Source: Lentzea tibetensis (lineage in GTDB: Bacteria > Actinomycetota > Actinomycetes > Mycobacteriales > Pseudonocardiaceae). Taken from it: a DNA stretch of 64,000 nt. The position numbers and the translations under genes are program-made. The stretch's first letter is position 1. Every line of letters starts with the position of its first letter. The stretch spans positions 166,401 to 230,400 of the forward strand of contig NZ_VOBR01000014.1 of the NCBI RefSeq assembly GCF_007845675.1, in the 5' to 3' direction. The notes beneath the pieces were generated by a model. That model was given only the letters and a program-made list of their open reading frames with translations. It was not told the DNA's origin and did not search any database. Below, in pieces: positions 1,344 to 63,953 of the stretch.

Positions 1344-4116
1344 CGGGCGTCGGGTCGGTGATCAGAGCGGCGAACGTGTGCCGGTCAGCCCACCGCCCGG
1401 TCGTCCACGCGAGCGCACGGGCCAGCCCCTCGGGCGTGTCCTCGGCGTGCGGCTCACCGCCGACCATCCACCAGGAGACGACCTGCCCGGACACGACCAG
1501 CGAGTCGTGCACCACCACGACCCCGGCAGGCAGCTCGACCTCCAGCAGCTCACACGCCACCCGCACCGCACCGAGCGAGTGCCAGGGCACCGGCTCCCCG
1601 TCCGACGACGGGGTCCCGCCCACCTCCTCGGAGGCGAACGGCAGGTCGAGCAGCTCGGCGAGCTCCTCGGTGGCGACCGCCGAAGCCAGCACCCGCGAAG
1701 GAGGCAGCACACCCAGCAGCCACGGCTGGTCGAGGATCACGACGTCGTCGGCGGGTACGGCCTCACCGGACAGCACCCGCACGCGCTCGCAGTCGAGCAC
1801 ATCGCCCGAAGGCGGCACCTCGGCCAACGCCGCGTGAGCACGCAGAGCCAGCGCGTCCGGGACGGCGCGCGACGGATCGCCGAGCCGCGCGACGAGGTCG
1901 GTCACGTCGTCGTCGCCGCGCAGCACGAGCTCGGACCGCACGCCTGCCGCGACGAGCGCGTGCCGGGGCAGGTCGAGATCGGGCACCGGGTCGTACAGCC
2001 CGAGCAGGTCGGCGGCCTCCGGCAGGCACCACGTCCCCGGCGCCTGGCCGGCGAGCCGCGCGTACTGCGAGATCCACCAGCCGGTGTAGCCGTCGGGTTC
2101 GGTCACCGCGCGCCACGTCACCGGGTCGGCGGCCAGCAGGCGCAGAGCCGCGGGCCAGTCCGCCACGAGGTCGAGGTCGCGCACGCCGATCACGCGCGAC
2201 GGCGGTTCCTCAGCCGAGTCCCACCAGTAGCCCTCGTCGGGCAGGTCGTGGTCCGGCTCGGTCGCCTCGTCGTCGACGACGACCTGGAACCCGTCCAGCA
2301 CGCCGACCGCGGCCAGCGCGGTGCGCGGCCACGCGTCGGCGACGCGCTTGTCCAGCACGGCGAACGCGTCCGGCTCCAGCACCTCGCGCAACGGCGAGTC
2401 CGGCAGCACCAGCTCGTCGGCTCGGCGCCAGTCGCCGGAGGAGTCGCGCAACGCCAGGGCCGAGAGCCACGGCTGCTCACCCGGACGCACCGACGAGCGG
2501 TCGACCAGGCGCAGCACGGTCTCCACCAGCTCGGCACCGTCGAGGCCCGCCTGGGCGTCCTCGACGCTGCGCTGCACGGCCTCGCGCAGACCGGCCGAGT
2601 CCAGCAGTTCCGACGCGCCCGCCTCGACCGCGCCCAGCCGCGTCAGCAGCGGGTGCACGGCGTCCGGGTGCACGATCCGCAGGCCCGGCAACGGTTCGTC
2701 GGCGATCAGCACGGTGCGCGGACCGGTCACGAGGCGGCCGTCGGCCAGCGGGACCGGGAGCGCGGACAACGCCTCGCGCACGTCCGAGGAAACATCAGCC
2801 AGCGGCTCGAAGGCCGCGTAAACGTCGCGCCACCACGCCGGATCGCCACCCACGCCCGACAGGGCAGCGACGACCTCGGCCACCGAGAGACGCGGAACCT
2901 CAAGTGCAGCAAGGGCTTTCGCGTGCGATGGCTCGGACAACGACGCGTCCAGCAGCCCGGGAAGAGCGTCCTCGACGAGCTCGACCAGCTCATCGCTGAC
3001 GACGTCCAGCACCCGAGCAGCCGAAGGCGCGGCCCATTCACCGCTCGCCAACGGCAGCCACGCGGCCGTCCGCAACGACTGCAGCAGCGAGGAACGCAGC
3101 CGCGAGTCCACTTCGGACAGGGGGAAGCCGGGCAGCGGCACCAGAGAAGTCCGCTCGACAGCGGGGATGCGCGCGACCAGCGCCGGGTACAGAGCGGCTG
3201 CCTGGTCCAGCACGAACCACGCCGCCTCGCCGGGCAGGATGCGCCGCCGCGACGGCTCGACCGGCAGCGTGGCCAGCAGCCGTGCGGGCAACGACAGCCG
3301 TTCGTCGGTCGGCGTCGGCGCGTGCAGCACGTCCTCACCCAACGGCGAGTCGAGCGGGTAGGCCCAGGTGACCGTCCACTGAGGACGGGTCTCGACGCCC
3401 TGCACGAACGAGGCGGGCACCTCACCGGACGCACGCTCCACGAGCCAGCGCGTCGAGCCGACGGTGACCACACCGTCGGCGGACTCGGACCGCTCCCACA
3501 CCTGCGAGCCGACCTCGATGCGGCGCAGACCGGGCAGCGCCAGCAGCAGGTCGGGTGCCTGCAGAGCGAAGGAGTCGAGCGACACCTCGCCCGAAACGGG
3601 CAGGCGCACCTCGGTCGCGAACCCGTCCGGCACGTCCTCGACGCAGGGCCACACGAGCCGCAGCACGGGCACGTCACCGCCGCGCTGAGCCGCCAGCTCG
3701 GGCACCTCGTCACGCGTGCGAGCCGCGGAGAACTCCACACCACCGGAAAGAGAAACCACTCGCGGCGCGTCGGTCACGGCGAGCACGGCGGCGAAGCCGA
3801 CGCCGAACTGCCCGACGCCGCTCTCCTTGGCCGACGCGCGCAGCGACGCGAGCGCTGCCACGCCAGCGGTGGTCAGCGGGGCGCCGGTGTTGGCCGCGCG
3901 CAGCTCACCGTCGACCAGCGAGATCCGCAGGAACCCGCCCTCCGGCGGTGCCGCGTCGGCGGCGTTCTGCGCCAGCTCGACGAACAGCCGGTCGCGGTAG
4001 GACCCGATGCGCAGGTCCTCCTCCGCGTTGGCGTCCTCGCGGAACCGGGTCGGGGAGTCGCGCCACGCGGAGAGAACCGCGGCCCTCAGTGCCGCGGTCC
4101 CGAAGGGGTCGGTCAC
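1327..4116 (-). CDS. Sacsin/Hsp90-type ATPase domain protein
   Basis: A 929-residue protein. The first ~140 residues resemble the GHKL (HSP90-like) ATPase fold of sacsin-type proteins: ELAQNAADA (N-box, Asn for Mg-ATP), a glycine-containing segment around GAPLTTAGVAAL, then GVGQFGVGFAAVLAVTD (G2-like lid). The remaining ~750 residues are rich in Leu, Ala, Asp and Glu and have no domain I can name. Homologues in actinobacteria are annotated as sacsin N-terminal ATPase-like or molecular chaperone; no substrate is established. It overlaps the start of the gene upstream (DUF3027) by 4 bp (ATGA), so the two are translationally coupled. The stop is inside an 18-bp tandem repeat. Confidence 0.82.
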   Translation of the reverse strand: MTDPFGTAALRAAVLSAWRDSPTRFREDANAEEDLRIGSYRDRLFVELAQNAADAAPPEGGFLRISLVDGELRAANTGAPLTTAGVAALASLRASAKESGVGQFGVGFAAVLAVTDAPRVVSLSGGVEFSAARTRDEVPELAAQRGGDVPVLRLVWPCVEDVPDGFATEVRLPVSGEVSLDSFALQAPDLLLALPGLRRIEVGSQVWERSESADGVVTVGSTRWLVERASGEVPASFVQGVETRPQWTVTWAYPLDSPLGEDVLHAPTPTDERLSLPARLLATLPVEPSRRRILPGEAAWFVLDQAAALYPALVARIPAVERTSLVPLPGFPLSEVDSRLRSSLLQSLRTAAWLPLASGEWAAPSAARVLDVVSDELVELVEDALPGLLDASLSEPSHAKALAALEVPRLSVAEVVAALSGVGGDPAWWRDVYAAFEPLADVSSDVREALSALPVPLADGRLVTGPRTVLIADEPLPGLRIVHPDAVHPLLTRLGAVEAGASELLDSAGLREAVQRSVEDAQAGLDGAELVETVLRLVDRSSVRPGEQPWLSALALRDSSGDWRRADELVLPDSPLREVLEPDAFAVLDKRVADAWPRTALAAVGVLDGFQVVVDDEATEPDHDLPDEGYWWDSAEEPPSRVIGVRDLDLVADWPAALRLLAADPVTWRAVTEPDGYTGWWISQYARLAGQAPGTWCLPEAADLLGLYDPVPDLDLPRHALVAAGVRSELVLRGDDDVTDLVARLGDPSRAVPDALALRAHAALAEVPPSGDVLDCERVRVLSGEAVPADDVVILDQPWLLGVLPPSRVLASAVATEELAELLDLPFASEEVGGTPSSDGEPVPWHSLGAVRVACELLEVELPAGVVVVHDSLVVSGQVVSWWMVGGEPHAEDTPEGLARALAWTTGRWADRHTFAALITDPTPAVLLG

Positions 4117-58595: not shown

Positions 58596-58615
58596 GACCC
58601 CGCCCCTCATCTTGC

Positions 58616-58632
58616 GTTGCACTATCTGCAAC
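58616..58632. promoter_or_regulatory. Inverted repeat upstream of dasA-like gene
   Basis: GTTGCACTATCTGCAAC: 6-bp arms, 5-bp centre, 21 bp upstream of the ATG. Distinct from the dre-type sites; may bind a second regulator. Confidence 0.45.
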
Positions 58633-58678
58633 AGCTATTTCGTAGGAAGCAACGAGCATGCTAGAACTGTCTGCGGCA

Positions 58679-58692
58679 AGGGTCTAGACCAG
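58679..58692. promoter_or_regulatory. dre-type (DasR) site 1
   Basis: The core GGTCTAGACC (58681-58690) followed by A matches the dre consensus TGGTCTAGACCA at 11 of 12 positions. It overlaps the cutC stop and lies 84 bp upstream of dasA. Confidence 0.72.
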
Positions 58693-59343
58693 ACGATCCA
58701 CCCATTCCCGGACAGCCACCGCTGAGACCGGCGAGTCCCAGCCGGACCGCACCGCGCTGCCCACGTGGAACCCCGTCACGCCCGCCGCGCGCAGCTCGTC
58801 CAGGTGCGCCAGCTTCAGCCCGCCGCCGACGAGCAGCCGCACGCGGTCCTGCTGCGCCGCCAGTTCGCGCAACACCGGAAGTCCATCGGCGACACCGCGC
58901 GGACTGCCGGCCGCGAGCACCGTGTCGCAGCCCAGCCCGGCGACGGTCTGCCACGACCGGCGCACGTCCGCGGAGTTGTCCAGCGCGCGGTGGAACGTCC
59001 AGCGGCAGCCGTCCAGCTCGGCGAGCAGGTTGAGGCAGACGCCCTCGTCGATCTCGTCGCCCGCGTCGAGGAAACCGAGCACGAACTCGGATGCACCCGC
59101 CTCCCGCAGCTCGGCCGCGGTGCGCCGCAGCTCCTTCAGGTCCTTGGGTGCGAAGCCGGTCGTGTCGCGCAGCATCACGCGGACCGGCAGATCGGTGGCG
59201 GACAGGACGTCGCGAAGCGTCTCGGCCGACGGGGTGAGCCCGTCCGAGTCCATGTCCGCGACGAGCTCGAGCCGGTGCGCCCCACCGGCCTGCGCGGCCT
59301 CGGCGTCCGCGGCGTCCAGTGCGATCACTTCGAGGAGATCCAT
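58684..59343 (-). CDS. cutC: CutC family TIM-barrel protein
   Basis: 219 residues. LEVIALDAADAEAAQAGGAHRLELVADMDSDGLTPS, VRVMLRD, FHRALDN and LLVGGGL are CutC signatures. Linked to copper homeostasis in E. coli, but the role is disputed. Here DasR-type sites at both ends tie it to the aminosugar operon downstream, perhaps as a sugar enzyme (inference). Confidence 0.87.
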   Translation of the reverse strand: MDLLEVIALDAADAEAAQAGGAHRLELVADMDSDGLTPSAETLRDVLSATDLPVRVMLRDTTGFAPKDLKELRRTAAELREAGASEFVLGFLDAGDEIDEGVCLNLLAELDGCRWTFHRALDNSADVRRSWQTVAGLGCDTVLAAGSPRGVADGLPVLRELAAQQDRVRLLVGGGLKLAHLDELRAAGVTGFHVGSAVRSGWDSPVSAVAVREWVDRLV

Positions 59344-59355
59344 GGTCTAGACCAT
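59342..59355. promoter_or_regulatory. dre-type (DasR) site 2
   Basis: ATGGTCTAGACCAT, a perfect 14-bp palindrome containing the full TGGTCTAGACCA core of DasR sites. It covers the cutC ATG. Confidence 0.82.
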
Positions 59356-59495
59356 ACTGGAACTGCAATTTGCTTTGGCGAAACGGTGAACGGGACGCGG
59401 TTCGCGAACGTCTCACACGCATCTGTATCTGCGTCTCAGTTGACTGCTCTGAACAGGTAAGCCGGCCTCGAATGTCGGCCTAAGGAGGGGTAACG

Positions 59496-59675
59496 ATGAG
59501 TGAGCAAACGCTGACCGAGCAGATCCCCGGCTACGCCCCACCGGTGAAGACCTGCCCGAACTGCCCCTACTGCCCAGAGGGGTGGGTGGTTGGCCCCAAC
59601 GGTCACCACGAAACCAATGGTGGCGGCACGACGACGACCGGCCACCACGAGACCAACGGCGGTCCGGTCGCCTGA
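59496..59675 (+). CDS. 59-residue Cys-motif/repeat peptide
   Basis: Small gene with a strong ribosome-binding site (AAGGAGGGG, 6 nt before ATG 59496). Residues 1-18 hydrophilic (MSEQTLTEQIPGYAPPVK); residues 20-29 CPNCPYCPEG with Cys20, 23, 26; then two copies of GHHETNGG (36-43, 49-56) joined by GTTTT. No signal peptide or TM. No family recognised. It could be a metal-binding peptide, a modified-peptide precursor, or a substrate of the CHAT protease encoded 1.4 kb downstream. Confidence 0.72.
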   Translation: MSEQTLTEQIPGYAPPVKTCPNCPYCPEGWVVGPNGHHETNGGGTTTTGHHETNGGPVA

Positions 59676-59732
59676 GAAAACCGGCGAGGTGAGCGATCGG
59701 TTCGAGGGGTCCGATCGCAAGCTCCCGCCACG

Positions 59733-59767
59733 ACGGCCCGTGATGACGAGGGGGAGTCACGGGCCGT
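59733..59767 (+). terminator. Hairpin between peptide gene and sigma-factor gene
   Basis: ACGGCCCGTGA (59733-59743) with TCACGGGCCGT (59757-59767): perfect 11-bp stem, 13-nt loop, no T-run. It may terminate the peptide mRNA or attenuate read-through. Confidence 0.65.
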
Positions 59768-59905
59768 TGGCGTTCTCGGAGGAAGATGAACTCAGCGGCG
59801 GTCTGATACTGCTCCATTCGAGTGAATCACGTATCTACCGCCCAGTTAGTTCCTCCTGAGTTGGCGGACGGCGCTGACCAGGGCGGCCGATCGGAGGTGT
59901 TGGGC

Positions 59906-60511
59906 GTGGGCGAGCTGCACACGGCAGACGAACACCCGCCGTGGGACGGATTGGAAGGCACCGAACGCCACGCCGTGTGCATCGAGGCGGCCAGGGACGG
60001 CAACCGGCTCGCACTGGACGTGCTGGTCGCGGAGCTGACACCGCTGGTGTGGCACGTGGCGCGCGGACAGGGTCTCGACCGGAACGTCGCAGAGGACGTC
60101 GTGCAGACGGTCTGGCTGGCTCTGCTGCGCAACCTCGGGAACCTGCACGAGCCGCGTGCGCTCGTGGGGTGGCTCGTCGTCACAACGAGGCGTGAAGCGC
60201 GGCGAACCTGGCAACCCAACAAGCGTGAGACAGCGCTGTCGGACGAGTTCGCCGAGCAACTGGAGTCCGAGACGGGACTTCCGGAGGACGTGACGCTCAT
60301 CGACGACAGGGACCGTCGCCTGTGGGCTGCTTTCGGGCGGCTGAACAGGCGCTGCCAGGAACTGTTGCGGCTCACCGTGCTCGCGGGGCGCGCCGAGTAC
60401 CGAGCGGTCGCCGAGGCGCTGTCCATGCCGCACGGCAGCATCGGCCCGACCAGGGGACGGTGCCTGACCCTGTTGCGGGGCTATCTGGAAACGGAAGGAG
60501 GATCGCGGTGA
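59906..60511 (+). CDS. ECF-type RNA polymerase sigma factor
   Basis: 201 residues from GTG 59906, with GGAGG 8 nt upstream; GTG 59822 would add 28 residues. Region 2: ALDVLVAELTPLVWHVARGQGLDRNVAEDVVQTVWLALLRNLGNL...LVGWLVVTTRREARR. Region 4: LNRRCQELLRLTVLAGRAEYRAVAEALSMPHGSIGPTRGRCLTLLRGYL. No classical zinc anti-sigma follows; the next gene overlaps by 4 bp. Confidence 0.88.
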   Translation: MGELHTADEHPPWDGLEGTERHAVCIEAARDGNRLALDVLVAELTPLVWHVARGQGLDRNVAEDVVQTVWLALLRNLGNLHEPRALVGWLVVTTRREARRTWQPNKRETALSDEFAEQLESETGLPEDVTLIDDRDRRLWAAFGRLNRRCQELLRLTVLAGRAEYRAVAEALSMPHGSIGPTRGRCLTLLRGYLETEGGSR

Positions 60512-60993
60512 ACGACATCGACCCGCGCGACAACCGTAGAGGCCAAGAGGACACCGCTGTCCTCTCCGAACTGAACAGGCTGGTGGACGAAATCGATCCG
60601 CCGCCCGCGGACCTCTTGGACCGCGTCAAGTTCGCGATCGCGCTGGAGGATCTGGACGTCGAGGTCGCACGCTGGGAGCGCGCCGGATCGTTCGCGGGCG
60701 TGCGCGGCGGCCAGACGGGCACGATCACGTTCACCGTCGACAACCTGACGCTGATGGTCAACTTCACGTCGACCGGCTCCCGCCACCGCATCGACGGCTG
60801 GCTGGTACCCGCGGGCGAGCACACGGTCGAGGTACGCGTGGCCGACCACCAGTCGAGCACGACGAAGGCCGACGACGGCGGCCGTTTCGTGCTGGCGGAC
60901 GTGCCGACCGGCACGACCCAGATCCTGGTGCACCTGGTCAACTCCCGCGGCGAACCCGGCAGAACGGTAGTCACCCCGACGATCATGTTGTGA
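60508..60993 (+). CDS. Unknown protein between sigma factor and CHAT protease
   Basis: 161 residues from GTG 60508, AAGGAGGA upstream, coupled (GTGA) to the sigma gene. Residues ~15-55 are helical (ELNRLVDEIDPPPADLLDRVKFAIALEDLDVEVARW); the rest is beta-rich with TGTITFTVDNLTLMVNFTS and GGRFVLADVPTGTTQILV, like carboxypeptidase-regulatory/transthyretin folds. No TM. It may hold the sigma factor or signal to it (inference). Confidence 0.7.
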   Translation: MNDIDPRDNRRGQEDTAVLSELNRLVDEIDPPPADLLDRVKFAIALEDLDVEVARWERAGSFAGVRGGQTGTITFTVDNLTLMVNFTSTGSRHRIDGWLVPAGEHTVEVRVADHQSSTTKADDGGRFVLADVPTGTTQILVHLVNSRGEPGRTVVTPTIML

Positions 60994-61069
60994 ACGTGAC
61001 CCGATCGGGCTAGGAACAGGGCCCTTTGGAAGGCGCACCGGACCTACTCGGTGTGTTGCCATTGGGTAC

Positions 61070-63670
61070 GTGCCTCGTACTCATCACTCGCTGGTCGTGC
61101 CCCAACAGGCCCGCGCAGTGCTGACGGAGGGCGTCGAGGCAGCTGCCGCACTGCGCGAACGTGCCAGGAAGACAGCCGCACAGGGCCGTCCGGCCGAGGC
61201 CGTGCGCCTGCTCAGACAGGCCTTGCGCACCCTGCCCGTGAGCACCGGCGACCACGAGGCCATCGCCGTCCGCGTCCGAGTCCTCTGCACCCTGGCCTAC
61301 GCCGAGGCGGAGATCGCCTCGGTGGCCGACGGCCTGGTCCACCTGGGCACAGCCGCAGACCTGCTGCACGCCGTGCCCAAGGGCCCCGCCCGCGCCGAGC
61401 TCGAGGGCTTGGTCCACAGCCAGCACGCCCTGGTCCTGCTGCGCGCCCTGCGCATCACCGAGGCCCTGTCCCTGTTCGACAAGGCAGTCCCCCTCTTCGA
61501 ACAGGCGAGAGCAGCAGGCGTGGGCGATCCCGCGGTCCTGATCCGCACGATCCTCAACCGCGGCCGCAGCTACATCGACAACGGCCAGATCACCGAGGCC
61601 GAGCAGGACATGCGCCGCAGCCAGGACCTGGCCGAACAACACGGCCTGGAAGTACTGCAGGCCAAAGCCCTGGGCAACCTGGGCGACATCGCCCAACTGC
61701 AGGGCGACATCCCAGGCGCCCTGGACTTCCACGAACACGCCGAACGAATCTTCCGCCGCCTGGCCCCGGACCTGGTCCCCCGCACCCAGATCGACCAGGC
61801 AAGAGCCCTGCTAGCCGCAGGCCTCCCACAGGAAGCGGCAGACCACCTCGACGAGGCCCTCCCAGAACTGCGCAAGAACCGAGCCTCCCAAGACCTGGCC
61901 GAGGCCGAACTGGCCCGAGCCGCAGCAGCCCTACTACTGGGCGACCTCCCACTGGCCCGCACCATGGCAGGCGCGGCGAGGGCCCGCTTCGCCCGCAGAG
62001 GAAGCGGCGCCTGGGCCGAGGTAGCAGCACTGACCCGCATGCGCGCAGACGCCCTGATCGCACTGGCCGGCACCCCGTCCCGCTCAGCGTCCCCGAGCAA
62101 GGCCACAGCCCTGGCCGACCGCTTGGCGTCCAAGGGCCTCTCCGACGAGGCGTCGATGGCGAGAATGCTGGCCGTACGCCTGGCCTGCCGCAGAGGCTCC
62201 CTGAAAATCGCAAGGGCCCTGGTGGCCACCGTCCCGTCCCCAGGCCCGCACACCCCGATCGACCACCGCATGCTCCTGCGCCTGTGCCGGGCAGAACTGG
62301 CCACCACTCCACAACGAGCCCTGGCCGAGGCGAACGCAGGAATGACCGAACTGTCCCAGGTCCGCGACAGAATGGGCGGCCTGGACCTCCTCTGCGGCAC
62401 CGCAGTACACGGCCGCGAACTCGGCGAACTGGCAGTGGGCCTGGTCCTGTCCTCAGGCGATCCCCACGAGATCTTCAACTGGGTGGAACGAACCCGAGCC
62501 CAGGTCTACCGCTACGAACCACTCCCGGTGATAGACGATCCCACCCTGGCCTCACGGGTGACCGAACTCCGCTCCCTGGCGAGAACAATGCAACAGGCCC
62601 GCCTGGAGGGCCGCCCAGTAGCAGCCCAGGAATCCCGCTTCGACGCGCTACGCCGAGAGGTGGCCCGCCTGGGCTGGCACACGTCCCCGTGGGGCCGCCC
62701 CCGCCCGGTGACGACACTCCCAGACGTGATCACCGCCCTGGCCGACCGAGCTCTGGTGACCTTCGTGGTCCACGACGACTCACTGGCCGCAGTGGTGGTC
62801 TCCGCAGGCTCAGTCTCCTTGGTACGCCTGGGCTCCGCCCTGACAGCAGCAGAAACAGCCCGCCAACTCCACGCCGACCTGGACGTACTGGCACCGGACC
62901 ACCTACCCCCGATGCTGGTGGACGCGGTAACCACATCCGCATCCCGCCGAGCCGCACTTCTCGACGCCCAACTCATCTCCCCGCTGCACCAGGTGATCGG
63001 CACCCGCGACCTGGTGGTGGTTCCGACCGGCGAGCTGTACGCAGTCCCTTGGGGCGCTTTGCCTTCACTGCACGGCCGCCCAGTGGTGGTAGCTCCGTCA
63101 GCAACGGCCTGGCTGGCCGCGTCCGAGGCAGTGCCCTCCGCAACCCGCGTAGTTCTGGTAGGCGGCCCAGACCTGCCCGAAAGCCTCGGCGAGGTCCGCC
63201 GCCTGCGCACCACGTACCCATCAGCGGTACTGCTGGAAGAAGCCACCACCGAAACCGTTCTGCACGAGCTGGACGGTGCCCGCCTGGCTCACATAGCGGC
63301 CCACGGCGTACACGCGGCGGACAACGCGTTGTTCTCCCGCCTGGAACTGTTCGACGGCCCCCTGTTCGCCCACGAAACAGCACGCCTAGGACGCCCCCCG
63401 GAGCAGGTAGTCCTAGCCGCCTGCGAACTGGCGCTCGCACACATCCGCCCAGGCGACGAAGCCCTGGGCTTCGCAGGCGCATTGCTGGCCAGCGGCTCAC
63501 ACACAGTGGTAGCAGCGGTGAACAAGGTGGGCGACAGAGCAGCAGCACTGACGATGGATGACTTCCACAAACTCCTGTCAGAGGGCAAACCCATCGCCCG
63601 AGCACTGGCAGAGGCAACAGCGGTAGACCCACTACACCGCCCATTCGTCTGCTTCGGCTCAGGCCACTGA
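61070..63670 (+). CDS. TPR-CHAT caspase-like protease
   Basis: 866 residues from GTG 61070. Residues ~25-450 are tetratricopeptide-like helical pairs (GRPAEAVRLLRQALRTL, GQITEAEQDMRRSQDLAEQHG, GDIPGALDFHEHAERIF). Residues ~560-866 are a CHAT domain: LVVVPTGELYAVPWGALP, AHIAAHGVH with His745 and VVLAACELA with Cys785, the catalytic dyad, then GFAGALLASGSHTVVAAV. Homologues are caspase-like proteases that cleave partner proteins. Codon use in the second half shows unusually many CCA/GCA/GTA codons compared with neighbours. Likely same operon or regulon as the sigma factor. Confidence 0.92.
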   Translation: MPRTHHSLVVPQQARAVLTEGVEAAAALRERARKTAAQGRPAEAVRLLRQALRTLPVSTGDHEAIAVRVRVLCTLAYAEAEIASVADGLVHLGTAADLLHAVPKGPARAELEGLVHSQHALVLLRALRITEALSLFDKAVPLFEQARAAGVGDPAVLIRTILNRGRSYIDNGQITEAEQDMRRSQDLAEQHGLEVLQAKALGNLGDIAQLQGDIPGALDFHEHAERIFRRLAPDLVPRTQIDQARALLAAGLPQEAADHLDEALPELRKNRASQDLAEAELARAAAALLLGDLPLARTMAGAARARFARRGSGAWAEVAALTRMRADALIALAGTPSRSASPSKATALADRLASKGLSDEASMARMLAVRLACRRGSLKIARALVATVPSPGPHTPIDHRMLLRLCRAELATTPQRALAEANAGMTELSQVRDRMGGLDLLCGTAVHGRELGELAVGLVLSSGDPHEIFNWVERTRAQVYRYEPLPVIDDPTLASRVTELRSLARTMQQARLEGRPVAAQESRFDALRREVARLGWHTSPWGRPRPVTTLPDVITALADRALVTFVVHDDSLAAVVVSAGSVSLVRLGSALTAAETARQLHADLDVLAPDHLPPMLVDAVTTSASRRAALLDAQLISPLHQVIGTRDLVVVPTGELYAVPWGALPSLHGRPVVVAPSATAWLAASEAVPSATRVVLVGGPDLPESLGEVRRLRTTYPSAVLLEEATTETVLHELDGARLAHIAAHGVHAADNALFSRLELFDGPLFAHETARLGRPPEQVVLAACELALAHIRPGDEALGFAGALLASGSHTVVAAVNKVGDRAAALTMDDFHKLLSEGKPIARALAEATAVDPLHRPFVCFGSGH

Positions 63671-63711
63671 CAACAGTGAAGCCGCAGGCGAGCCGACCAA
63701 GAAAACCAGTG

Positions 63712-63842
63712 GGTGGTGGGGTCTCCGTACGGCGCAGGCGAAGCCCTGCCATATTTTTAGGGCGGGGTCAAGACGTCTTTTGTCTTGACCCCGCCCTAAA
63801 AATGCGGCTGCCTCTGGTGCGCCGTACGGAGACCCCACCACC
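63712..63842. repeat. 131-nt nested perfect inverted repeat
   Basis: Outer arms 63712-63736 and 63818-63842 are perfectly complementary (25 bp). Inner arms 63754-63774 and 63782-63802 are perfectly complementary (21 bp) with a 7-nt loop and end in TTTTT/AAAAA. The unpaired parts between them differ (17 and 15 nt). It may end CHAT transcription or be a MITE-like element. Confidence 0.85.
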
Positions 63843-63953
63843 AAAGCAACCATCTACGAAAAGCAACCAGGGACCTCCGGTGGTGCCGGGGTCCGGGGCG
63901 GAGCCCAGGCGGGGGCAAGGGGCGGATTCGAGGGATCGTTGCAACACGCATGA
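63843..63953. other. Intergenic region, GC-rich
   Basis: No gene found. G-rich runs (GGGGTCCGGGGCGGAGCCC) at about 63885-63905; GTTGCAAC at 63939-63946 may be part of an insertion-sequence end. Confidence 0.4.

Follow-up and report, generated by a model that had tools for sequence, protein, structure and literature searches.

In a 64-kb stretch of the Lentzea tibetensis genome (hereafter, the window, which is the end of contig C16 of its own genome), four genes on the same strand (59496 to 63670) encode a 59-amino-acid (aa) peptide, an extracytoplasmic function (ECF)-type sigma factor, a 161-aa protein coupled to the sigma factor (i.e., beta), and a cysteine protease that combines tetratricopeptide repeats (TPRs) with a CHAT domain. 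On the basis of gene distributions among related genomes, the 161-aa protein is best read as traveling with the sigma factor and the peptide as traveling mostly with the CHAT protease, of which it would be the partner (i.e., a substrate or an inhibitor). As a whole, the locus is best explained as a CHAT-peptide module joined to a sigma-beta module under autoregulation, an explanation that we hold tentatively and at somewhat less than an even chance.

All four open reading frames (ORFs) listed by a first-pass annotation of this DNA were present on the forward strand. The acidic peptide (59496 to 59675; ribosome site, AAGGAGGGG) contains a CPNCPYCP motif and two GHHETNGG motifs, and its gene is followed by those for the sigma factor (201 aa; 59906 to 60511), the 161-aa protein (60508 to 60993), and the CHAT protease (866 aa; 61070 to 63670). 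The complete order is also found in Lentzea sp. NBRC 105346 (L031; CHAT protein, 85% identity), the closest of the related loci, and the gene arrangement therefore exceeds chance. None of the four proteins matched the anti-phage defense systems of PADLOC (PADLOC-DB 2023).

The related loci are the best 80 of 355 CHAT relatives, nearly all from Pseudonocardiaceae; the named genomes were scanned with an alignment of five CHAT paralogues. A small ORF lay 5' of CHAT, or of a sigma-beta-CHAT series, in all 80 loci (refined picker plus reading). Sigma-beta-CHAT was found in 15 of them, and the CHAT genes of the other 65 had no coupled sigma-beta pair. Using a picker based on start codon, ribosome site, length, and codon-position G+C content (i.e., with no acidity or motif criteria), we scored a peptide ORF as positive in 58 of 61 sigma-less loci, compared with 45 of 446 control ORFs (the remaining long ORFs at these loci). 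One Amycolatopsis-type peptide was detected in 7 of 200 family genomes, each time directly 5' of a listed CHAT gene, and the window peptide was detected in two of the 200 (the window genome and G487). Four of the 65 loci (L059, L074, L097, and L107) have a differing sigma arrangement upstream, with a Cys-type peptide directly 5' of CHAT. At L059 (4519 to 7379) and L107 (5476 to 7352), a sigma factor extended by a C-terminal segment is followed by a 298- to 410-aa protein just 5' of the peptide-CHAT pair; the L059 protein of this type has a subthreshold similarity to CHAT (E = 0.014).

The sigma-beta pair also occurs separately. In 9 of 11 same-genus genomes, the 161-aa protein is kept (91 to 93% identity) with the sigma gene before it, and neither CHAT nor the peptide was found in the short flanks of these nine loci. 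Seven were re-read in longer stretches and had the order cutC-sigma-beta, with groEL beyond in six and a contig end in the seventh; they contained no CHAT gene, and the caller that detects the window peptide identified no ORF in the cutC-sigma interval. Open frames from a motif search in L270, L271, and L275 were rejected as spurious, as the caller finds no cutC-sigma ORF in L269 to L275. The contigs of L145/L269 and L149 end about 640 and 530 bases, respectively, after the 161-aa gene. Since the peptide is kept in the 65 loci that lack sigma-beta and is absent together with CHAT from all seven re-read congeners, it appears to be mainly the partner of CHAT.

Of 200 family genomes, 99 contained the 161-aa protein (E up to 1e-8), and CHAT (E up to 1e-150) was present in those 99 and in no others, a co-occurrence that fits action in trans. 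In 63 of these genomes, the two genes were linked (i.e., no more than 5 kb apart); at most four CHAT candidates were scored per genome, so that the 36 "unlinked" genomes are an upper bound. In the 20 of these 36 unlinked loci that were examined (9 + 11), the flank read contained no CHAT gene. According to the first-pass annotation, CHAT would process one of the two small proteins (the peptide or the 161-aa protein) and thereby free the sigma factor. The adjacency of CHAT to the sigma-beta pair on which this proposal drew was borne out by these 63 genomes, while the tie of the peptide to the sigma factor was weakened both by the 65 peptide-CHAT loci that have no coupled pair and by the seven congeners that keep sigma and the 161-aa gene with neither of the other two.

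The window peptide matched no family above the cut-off in Pfam, NCBIfam, or PADLOC (one NCBIfam match had an E value of 0.094), and nine example peptides from related loci matched none in Pfam or NCBIfam. The picked peptides span 47 to 118 aa (the true ORF in L033 is about 170 aa), and all 81 analyzed carry a net negative charge and no hydrophobic segment; the picker favors acidic ORFs of 130 aa at most, so that the uniform acidity and the length range are partly a selection effect. Tandem cassettes are present in several peptides (e.g., GPVAHANGIPQAETIE in L033, GPVHHE in L035, GGPYKPTGDP in L055, and GHHETNGG twice in the window), with a strict repeat in 18 of the 81, a Cys pair in 41, and neither in 22. 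The ratio of nonsynonymous to synonymous substitution rates (dN/dS) was 0.15 between the peptides of the window and Lentzea sp. NBRC 105346. For 26 close, hand-picked pairs, it ranged from 0.06 to 1.14 and was <1 in 24 and <0.6 in 21. Because dN/dS was <1 in 24 of the 26 pairs, most of the peptides are probably translated and constrained, yet fast-changing. The peptide is small and acidic and is probably cytosolic and unstructured.

The window CHAT protein (PF12770, E = 2.4e-30; TPR_12, E = 8.7e-15) retains H745 and C785, the residues reported as intact by the first-pass annotation, and both occur in all 85 aligned proteins (80 loci and five own-genome copies). Its start codon, placed at 61070, is uncertain and lacks a clear ribosome site. 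The genome carries five full CHAT paralogues, and a sigma paralogue adjoins four of them (the window, C77, C28, and C66; in C28 and C66, CHAT is on the opposite strand), with a coupled third ORF after sigma in each of the four. In a single-sequence search of the genome, the 161-aa query found one significant paralogue (C77); the beta copies of C28 and C66 were identified by coupled position and alignment. The C77, C28, and C66 loci also carry a subtilase (Pfam S8, E = 1e-17 to 7e-23), and their spacing is too tight to fit a peptide gene. The fifth CHAT (C59) has no sigma factor; a 67-aa peptide ORF lies directly 5' of it, and gatB and a zinc carboxypeptidase adjoin. This M14 zinc carboxypeptidase (C59 copy, E = 2.7e-23) lies just 3' of solo CHAT genes (e.g., L027, 4880 to 7378) and forms a recurrent cluster in 23 of the 80 loci.

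The sigma ORF (59822 to 60511) matched TIGR02937 (E = 5.8e-16; residues 64 to 220 of the longer ORF) and Sigma70_r2 (E = 1.4e-8) in searches of Pfam and NCBIfam. It consists of the two-domain sigma-70 core (regions 2 and 4) with no region 1 or 3, as in ECF factors, in agreement with the first-pass assignment. The start is probably the GTG at 59906 rather than 59822, the start of the first-listed ORF, because frame-shifting indels separate same-genus relatives in 59822 to 59905, the initial 29 residues of the longer ORF lie in a different frame in L148 and L150, and a GGAGG at 59893 to 59897 stands 8 nucleotides (nt) before the GTG. The 161-aa gene overlaps the sigma gene by 4 nt (GTGA), and its product matched no Pfam or NCBIfam family above the cut-off (best subthreshold match, CarboxypepD_reg, E = 0.015), as in the earlier description of a coupled protein with no known domain. 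A sequence search against solved structures gave nothing significant (best E = 0.4). We propose that it is a soluble, translationally coupled sigma partner that would hold or tune the sigma factor. In a plasmid collection, the 161-aa protein had one match, a chromosome-sized Nonomuraea record. In a phage collection, it also had one match, a 7.5-kb "Bacteriophage sp." record (MT838002.1, 1732 to 2172; 34% identity) that comes from human feces and carries no annotation; this record holds a distant relative and may be bacterial DNA.

A short motif, [TC]GTATC[TC], was found within 300 nt 5' of the peptide gene in 13 of 16 sigma-type loci and in none of 65 sigma-less loci. Among 92 sigma loci, which include repeated species (L031/L144/L173, L079/L165/L174, and others), it was found 5' of sigma in 63 (expected, 0.05 per 960 bp); the 29 loci without it include most of the subtilase-type ones. 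It occurs twice at the window locus on the forward strand, as TGTATCT at 59424 to 59430 (65 nt 5' of the peptide gene) and as CGTATCT at 59830 to 59836 (5' of sigma, inside a genus-conserved block), and the longer form TGTATCTRC has a single copy in the entire 64 kb of the window (expected, 0.07). Since the motif is present in sigma-type peptide loci and never in sigma-less ones, we regard it as a candidate promoter element that the sigma factor may use, and the sigma factor probably drives its own operon. Control of the solo peptide-CHAT genes in trans by the sigma factor was considered; the motif is absent from all 65 of these loci.

Between the peptide and sigma genes lies a terminator-like hairpin (59733 to 59768, forward strand; arms, 59733 to 59744 and 59756 to 59768; z = -2.61 for 59676 to 59821). 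With a threshold derived from mononucleotide shuffles, a strong hairpin follows the peptide gene in 64 of the 81 loci analyzed and precedes it in two. The hairpin is kept in same-genus species that lack the peptide gene and is therefore not only a peptide terminator. The region from 59676 to 59905 forms a genus-conserved 230-nt leader 5' of sigma, which could be a regulatory RNA; Rfam gave no match at E up to 1 over 58600 to 61200.

The position upstream of sigma or CHAT is occupied by different genes in different lineages. In the 29 class-level CHAT loci fetched out of 41 non-own matches listed, a subtilase adjoins 28 by profile and the 29th on a longer stretch, and the short flanks of 11 also include sigma and beta. 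Among 60 family regions around sigma, 20 carry a papain-type protease with a chagasin-type inhibitor (e.g., L213; Pfam C1, E = 3.1e-39; I42, E = 2.9e-16), four the protease alone, and two the inhibitor alone; no subtilase was found in any of the 60. The remaining 34, assigned by eye, have a peptide-type small ORF (24 regions), a small membrane-protein ORF (six; L205 to L210, where it fills the slot 5' of sigma instead of the peptide), or nothing clear (four). S8, C1, and I42 are absent from the DNA stretches examined for all 80 CHAT loci. Trees (FastTree, with long branches) cluster the slot states but require several changes; a single subtilase-to-peptide swap was rejected, as the peptide label needs at least three changes after the addition of 29 family loci. 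A mobile island is not favored either, given that many loci keep a constant chromosomal position (cutC-groEL and gatCAB) and that the 161-aa protein, the one query taken to the plasmid and phage collections, matched a single record in each. Possibly, though on the unlikely side, actinobacteria use a two-gene switch that couples a caspase-like TPR-CHAT protease to a private, fast-changing, often multicassette intracellular peptide. The slot would then be interchangeable in evolution, such that this peptide, a subtilase, or a papain-chagasin pair is plugged into a conserved sigma-beta-CHAT core, and the window peptide would control an autoregulated sigma factor.

In the favored explanation of two joined modules, the TPR-CHAT protease and its own acidic peptide, a dedicated substrate or a competing inhibitor, would form one module, and an ECF54-like sigma factor with its translationally coupled, soluble 161-aa regulator would form the other. 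The hairpin after the peptide gene suggests that the peptide is perhaps made in excess. A cytosolic signal sensed by the TPR part would activate CHAT, and the activated protease would consume or cleave the peptide. The sigma factor would then be released, either directly or through cleavage of the 161-aa protein, and might transcribe its own operon from the [TC]GTATC[TC] promoters, renewing the peptide, the sigma factor, and CHAT. The signal and every step of cleavage, binding, and release are proposed here from sequence comparisons. Several observations weigh against this explanation. Because the 65 peptide-CHAT pairs (of 80) have neither a coupled sigma-beta pair nor the motif, the usual output need not be a sigma factor. 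Two of seven further Saccharothrix-like sigma-beta loci without CHAT keep a peptide, namely, L262 (found by motif only and missed by the caller) and L265 (found by the caller and lacking the HHQ motif). Sigma-beta can also keep papain or chagasin genes at loci that have no CHAT (L276, L277, and L279), and the co-occurrence in 99 genomes is uncorrected for relatedness (24 of 46 genera). The L265 peptide ORF (2974 to 3093 in sigma orientation; 39 aa) resembles the L203 and L204 peptides and is perhaps a peptide decaying after the loss of CHAT.

In an alternative that follows the first-pass proposal and comes close to the Craspase/CASP logic, the 161-aa protein would be an anti-sigma factor that CHAT cleaves upon a signal to free the sigma factor, with the peptide as an accessory. 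The overlap of its gene with sigma and its presence in the same 99 genomes as CHAT are consistent with this, and the literature describes both the cleavage by the TPR-CHAT protein Csx29 of Csx30, an inhibitor of CASP-sigma (PMC10028731), and a proposal of proteolytic control of ECF54 based on neighboring CHAT, subtilase, and carboxypeptidase genes (PMC8999054, a 2022 review). A cleavage of the 161-aa protein that resembles the Csx29/Csx30/CASP-sigma case is possible by analogy. However, sigma-beta had no neighboring CHAT in the 16 same-genus and Saccharothrix-like loci checked, 65 of the 80 loci have a peptide-CHAT pair that lacks coupled sigma-beta, the 161-aa protein has no sequence kinship with a solved structure, and CHAT was rejected as a Csx29 member, its match to the Csx29 model being far below the cut-off (12.9 bits versus 300; E = 0.035). 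We consider this account rather unlikely.

Two further alternatives center on the peptide. If it were an inhibitor dedicated to CHAT, occupying the chagasin-type slot, CHAT might be a cell-damaging effector in a toxin-antitoxin-like pair. This fits the Inhibitor_I42 gene (E = 2.9e-16) and papain-type protease in the slot of relatives, the joint absence of peptide and CHAT from the seven re-read same-genus loci, and a hairpin that could maintain an excess of peptide. It is nonetheless improbable, given that I42 accompanies a papain-type protease (the usual target of I42 inhibitors) and stays with sigma-beta in L279, where CHAT is absent; that many loci hold fixed chromosomal positions; and that L262 and L265 have the peptide without CHAT. 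The peptide might also be a multicopy precursor that CHAT cuts between cassettes into short intracellular signal peptides, some of them read by TPRs. The tandem cassettes and the uniform acidity and lack of hydrophobic segments (in peptides chosen by a picker that favored acidic ORFs) agree with such a role, but a strict repeat is confined to 18 of the 81 peptides, and we consider the precursor reading quite improbable. The 25 most recurrent neighbor clusters of the 80 loci (judged by eye; several are unnamed) include gatCAB, M14, cutC, groEL, and sigma, and no gene for modification or export, or for the maturation of ribosomally synthesized and posttranslationally modified peptides, was recognized among them.

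The favored joining of two modules can be compared with several known systems. ECF54 is close by gene context, which may point to an ECF54-like sigma factor. According to the 2022 review, the neighboring carboxypeptidase, subtilase, and CHAT genes of ECF54 led to the suggestion that it is under proteolytic control (PMC8999054). Judged against that published description of the context, the likeness lies in an ECF sigma factor beside TPR-CHAT, in the subtilases of the three own paralogous loci and of the class-level relatives, and in the subthreshold carboxypeptidase-regulatory-like segment of the 161-aa protein; the window locus differs in carrying CHAT with no subtilase and with a 59-aa peptide. 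M14 is found only 3' of solo CHAT genes such as that of C59, and it may correspond to the "carboxypeptidase" described for ECF54. Craspase/CASP (type III-E CRISPR) likewise combines TPR-CHAT, an ECF sigma factor, and a third protein as a possible inhibitor and substrate. In contrast to Craspase/CASP, no CRISPR effector was seen among the four proteins of the locus (no dedicated CRISPR search was made), no kinship was found for the 161-aa protein, and the accessible part of the Csx29 account mentions no peptide gene (PMC10028731). Caspase systems that include genes for ECF sigma factors and TPR proteins have also been described (PMC8195603).

Chagasin (I42)-papain pairs resemble the present case in that related sigma-beta-CHAT loci carry both genes 5' of sigma, but the window peptide has no I42 match. 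TPR regulators that sense peptides are known from the Rap/Rgg type. The likeness to Rap/Rgg consists of a short peptide ORF near a TPR protein and a match of the CHAT profile to the RapH TPR (E = 3.2e-4), as is true of many TPRs; the peptides described here differ in lacking a hydrophobic export-like segment, and the TPR part is fused to a protease. Among the open-access titles and abstract openings listed in literature searches, none dealt with a peptide-CHAT pair or with chagasin and these sigma factors. The sigma factor beside TPR-CHAT is the known part of this system, and the part that looks new is a peptide paired mostly with the protease, in a slot filled in other lineages by proteases or an inhibitor.

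Outside the system, directly after CHAT (63690 to 63850), a nested palindromic element (63712 to 63842; no strand assigned) has 25-nt arms that are 100% complementary and inner 27-nt arms that are 93% complementary. It gave 46 alignments in its own genome on both strands, itself included, and belongs to a repeat family.

An open question concerns those ECF sigma factors whose genes neighbor proteases and for which no anti-sigma factor is known. Comparative genomics largely sorts the genes of the present locus, assigning the peptide to the protease and the 161-aa protein to the sigma factor. If the peptide is indeed a substrate or an inhibitor of CHAT, the two would constitute an undescribed peptide-protease pair that recurs in many Pseudonocardiaceae genomes, and the L. 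tibetensis locus suggests an undescribed peptide-controlled proteolytic switch.

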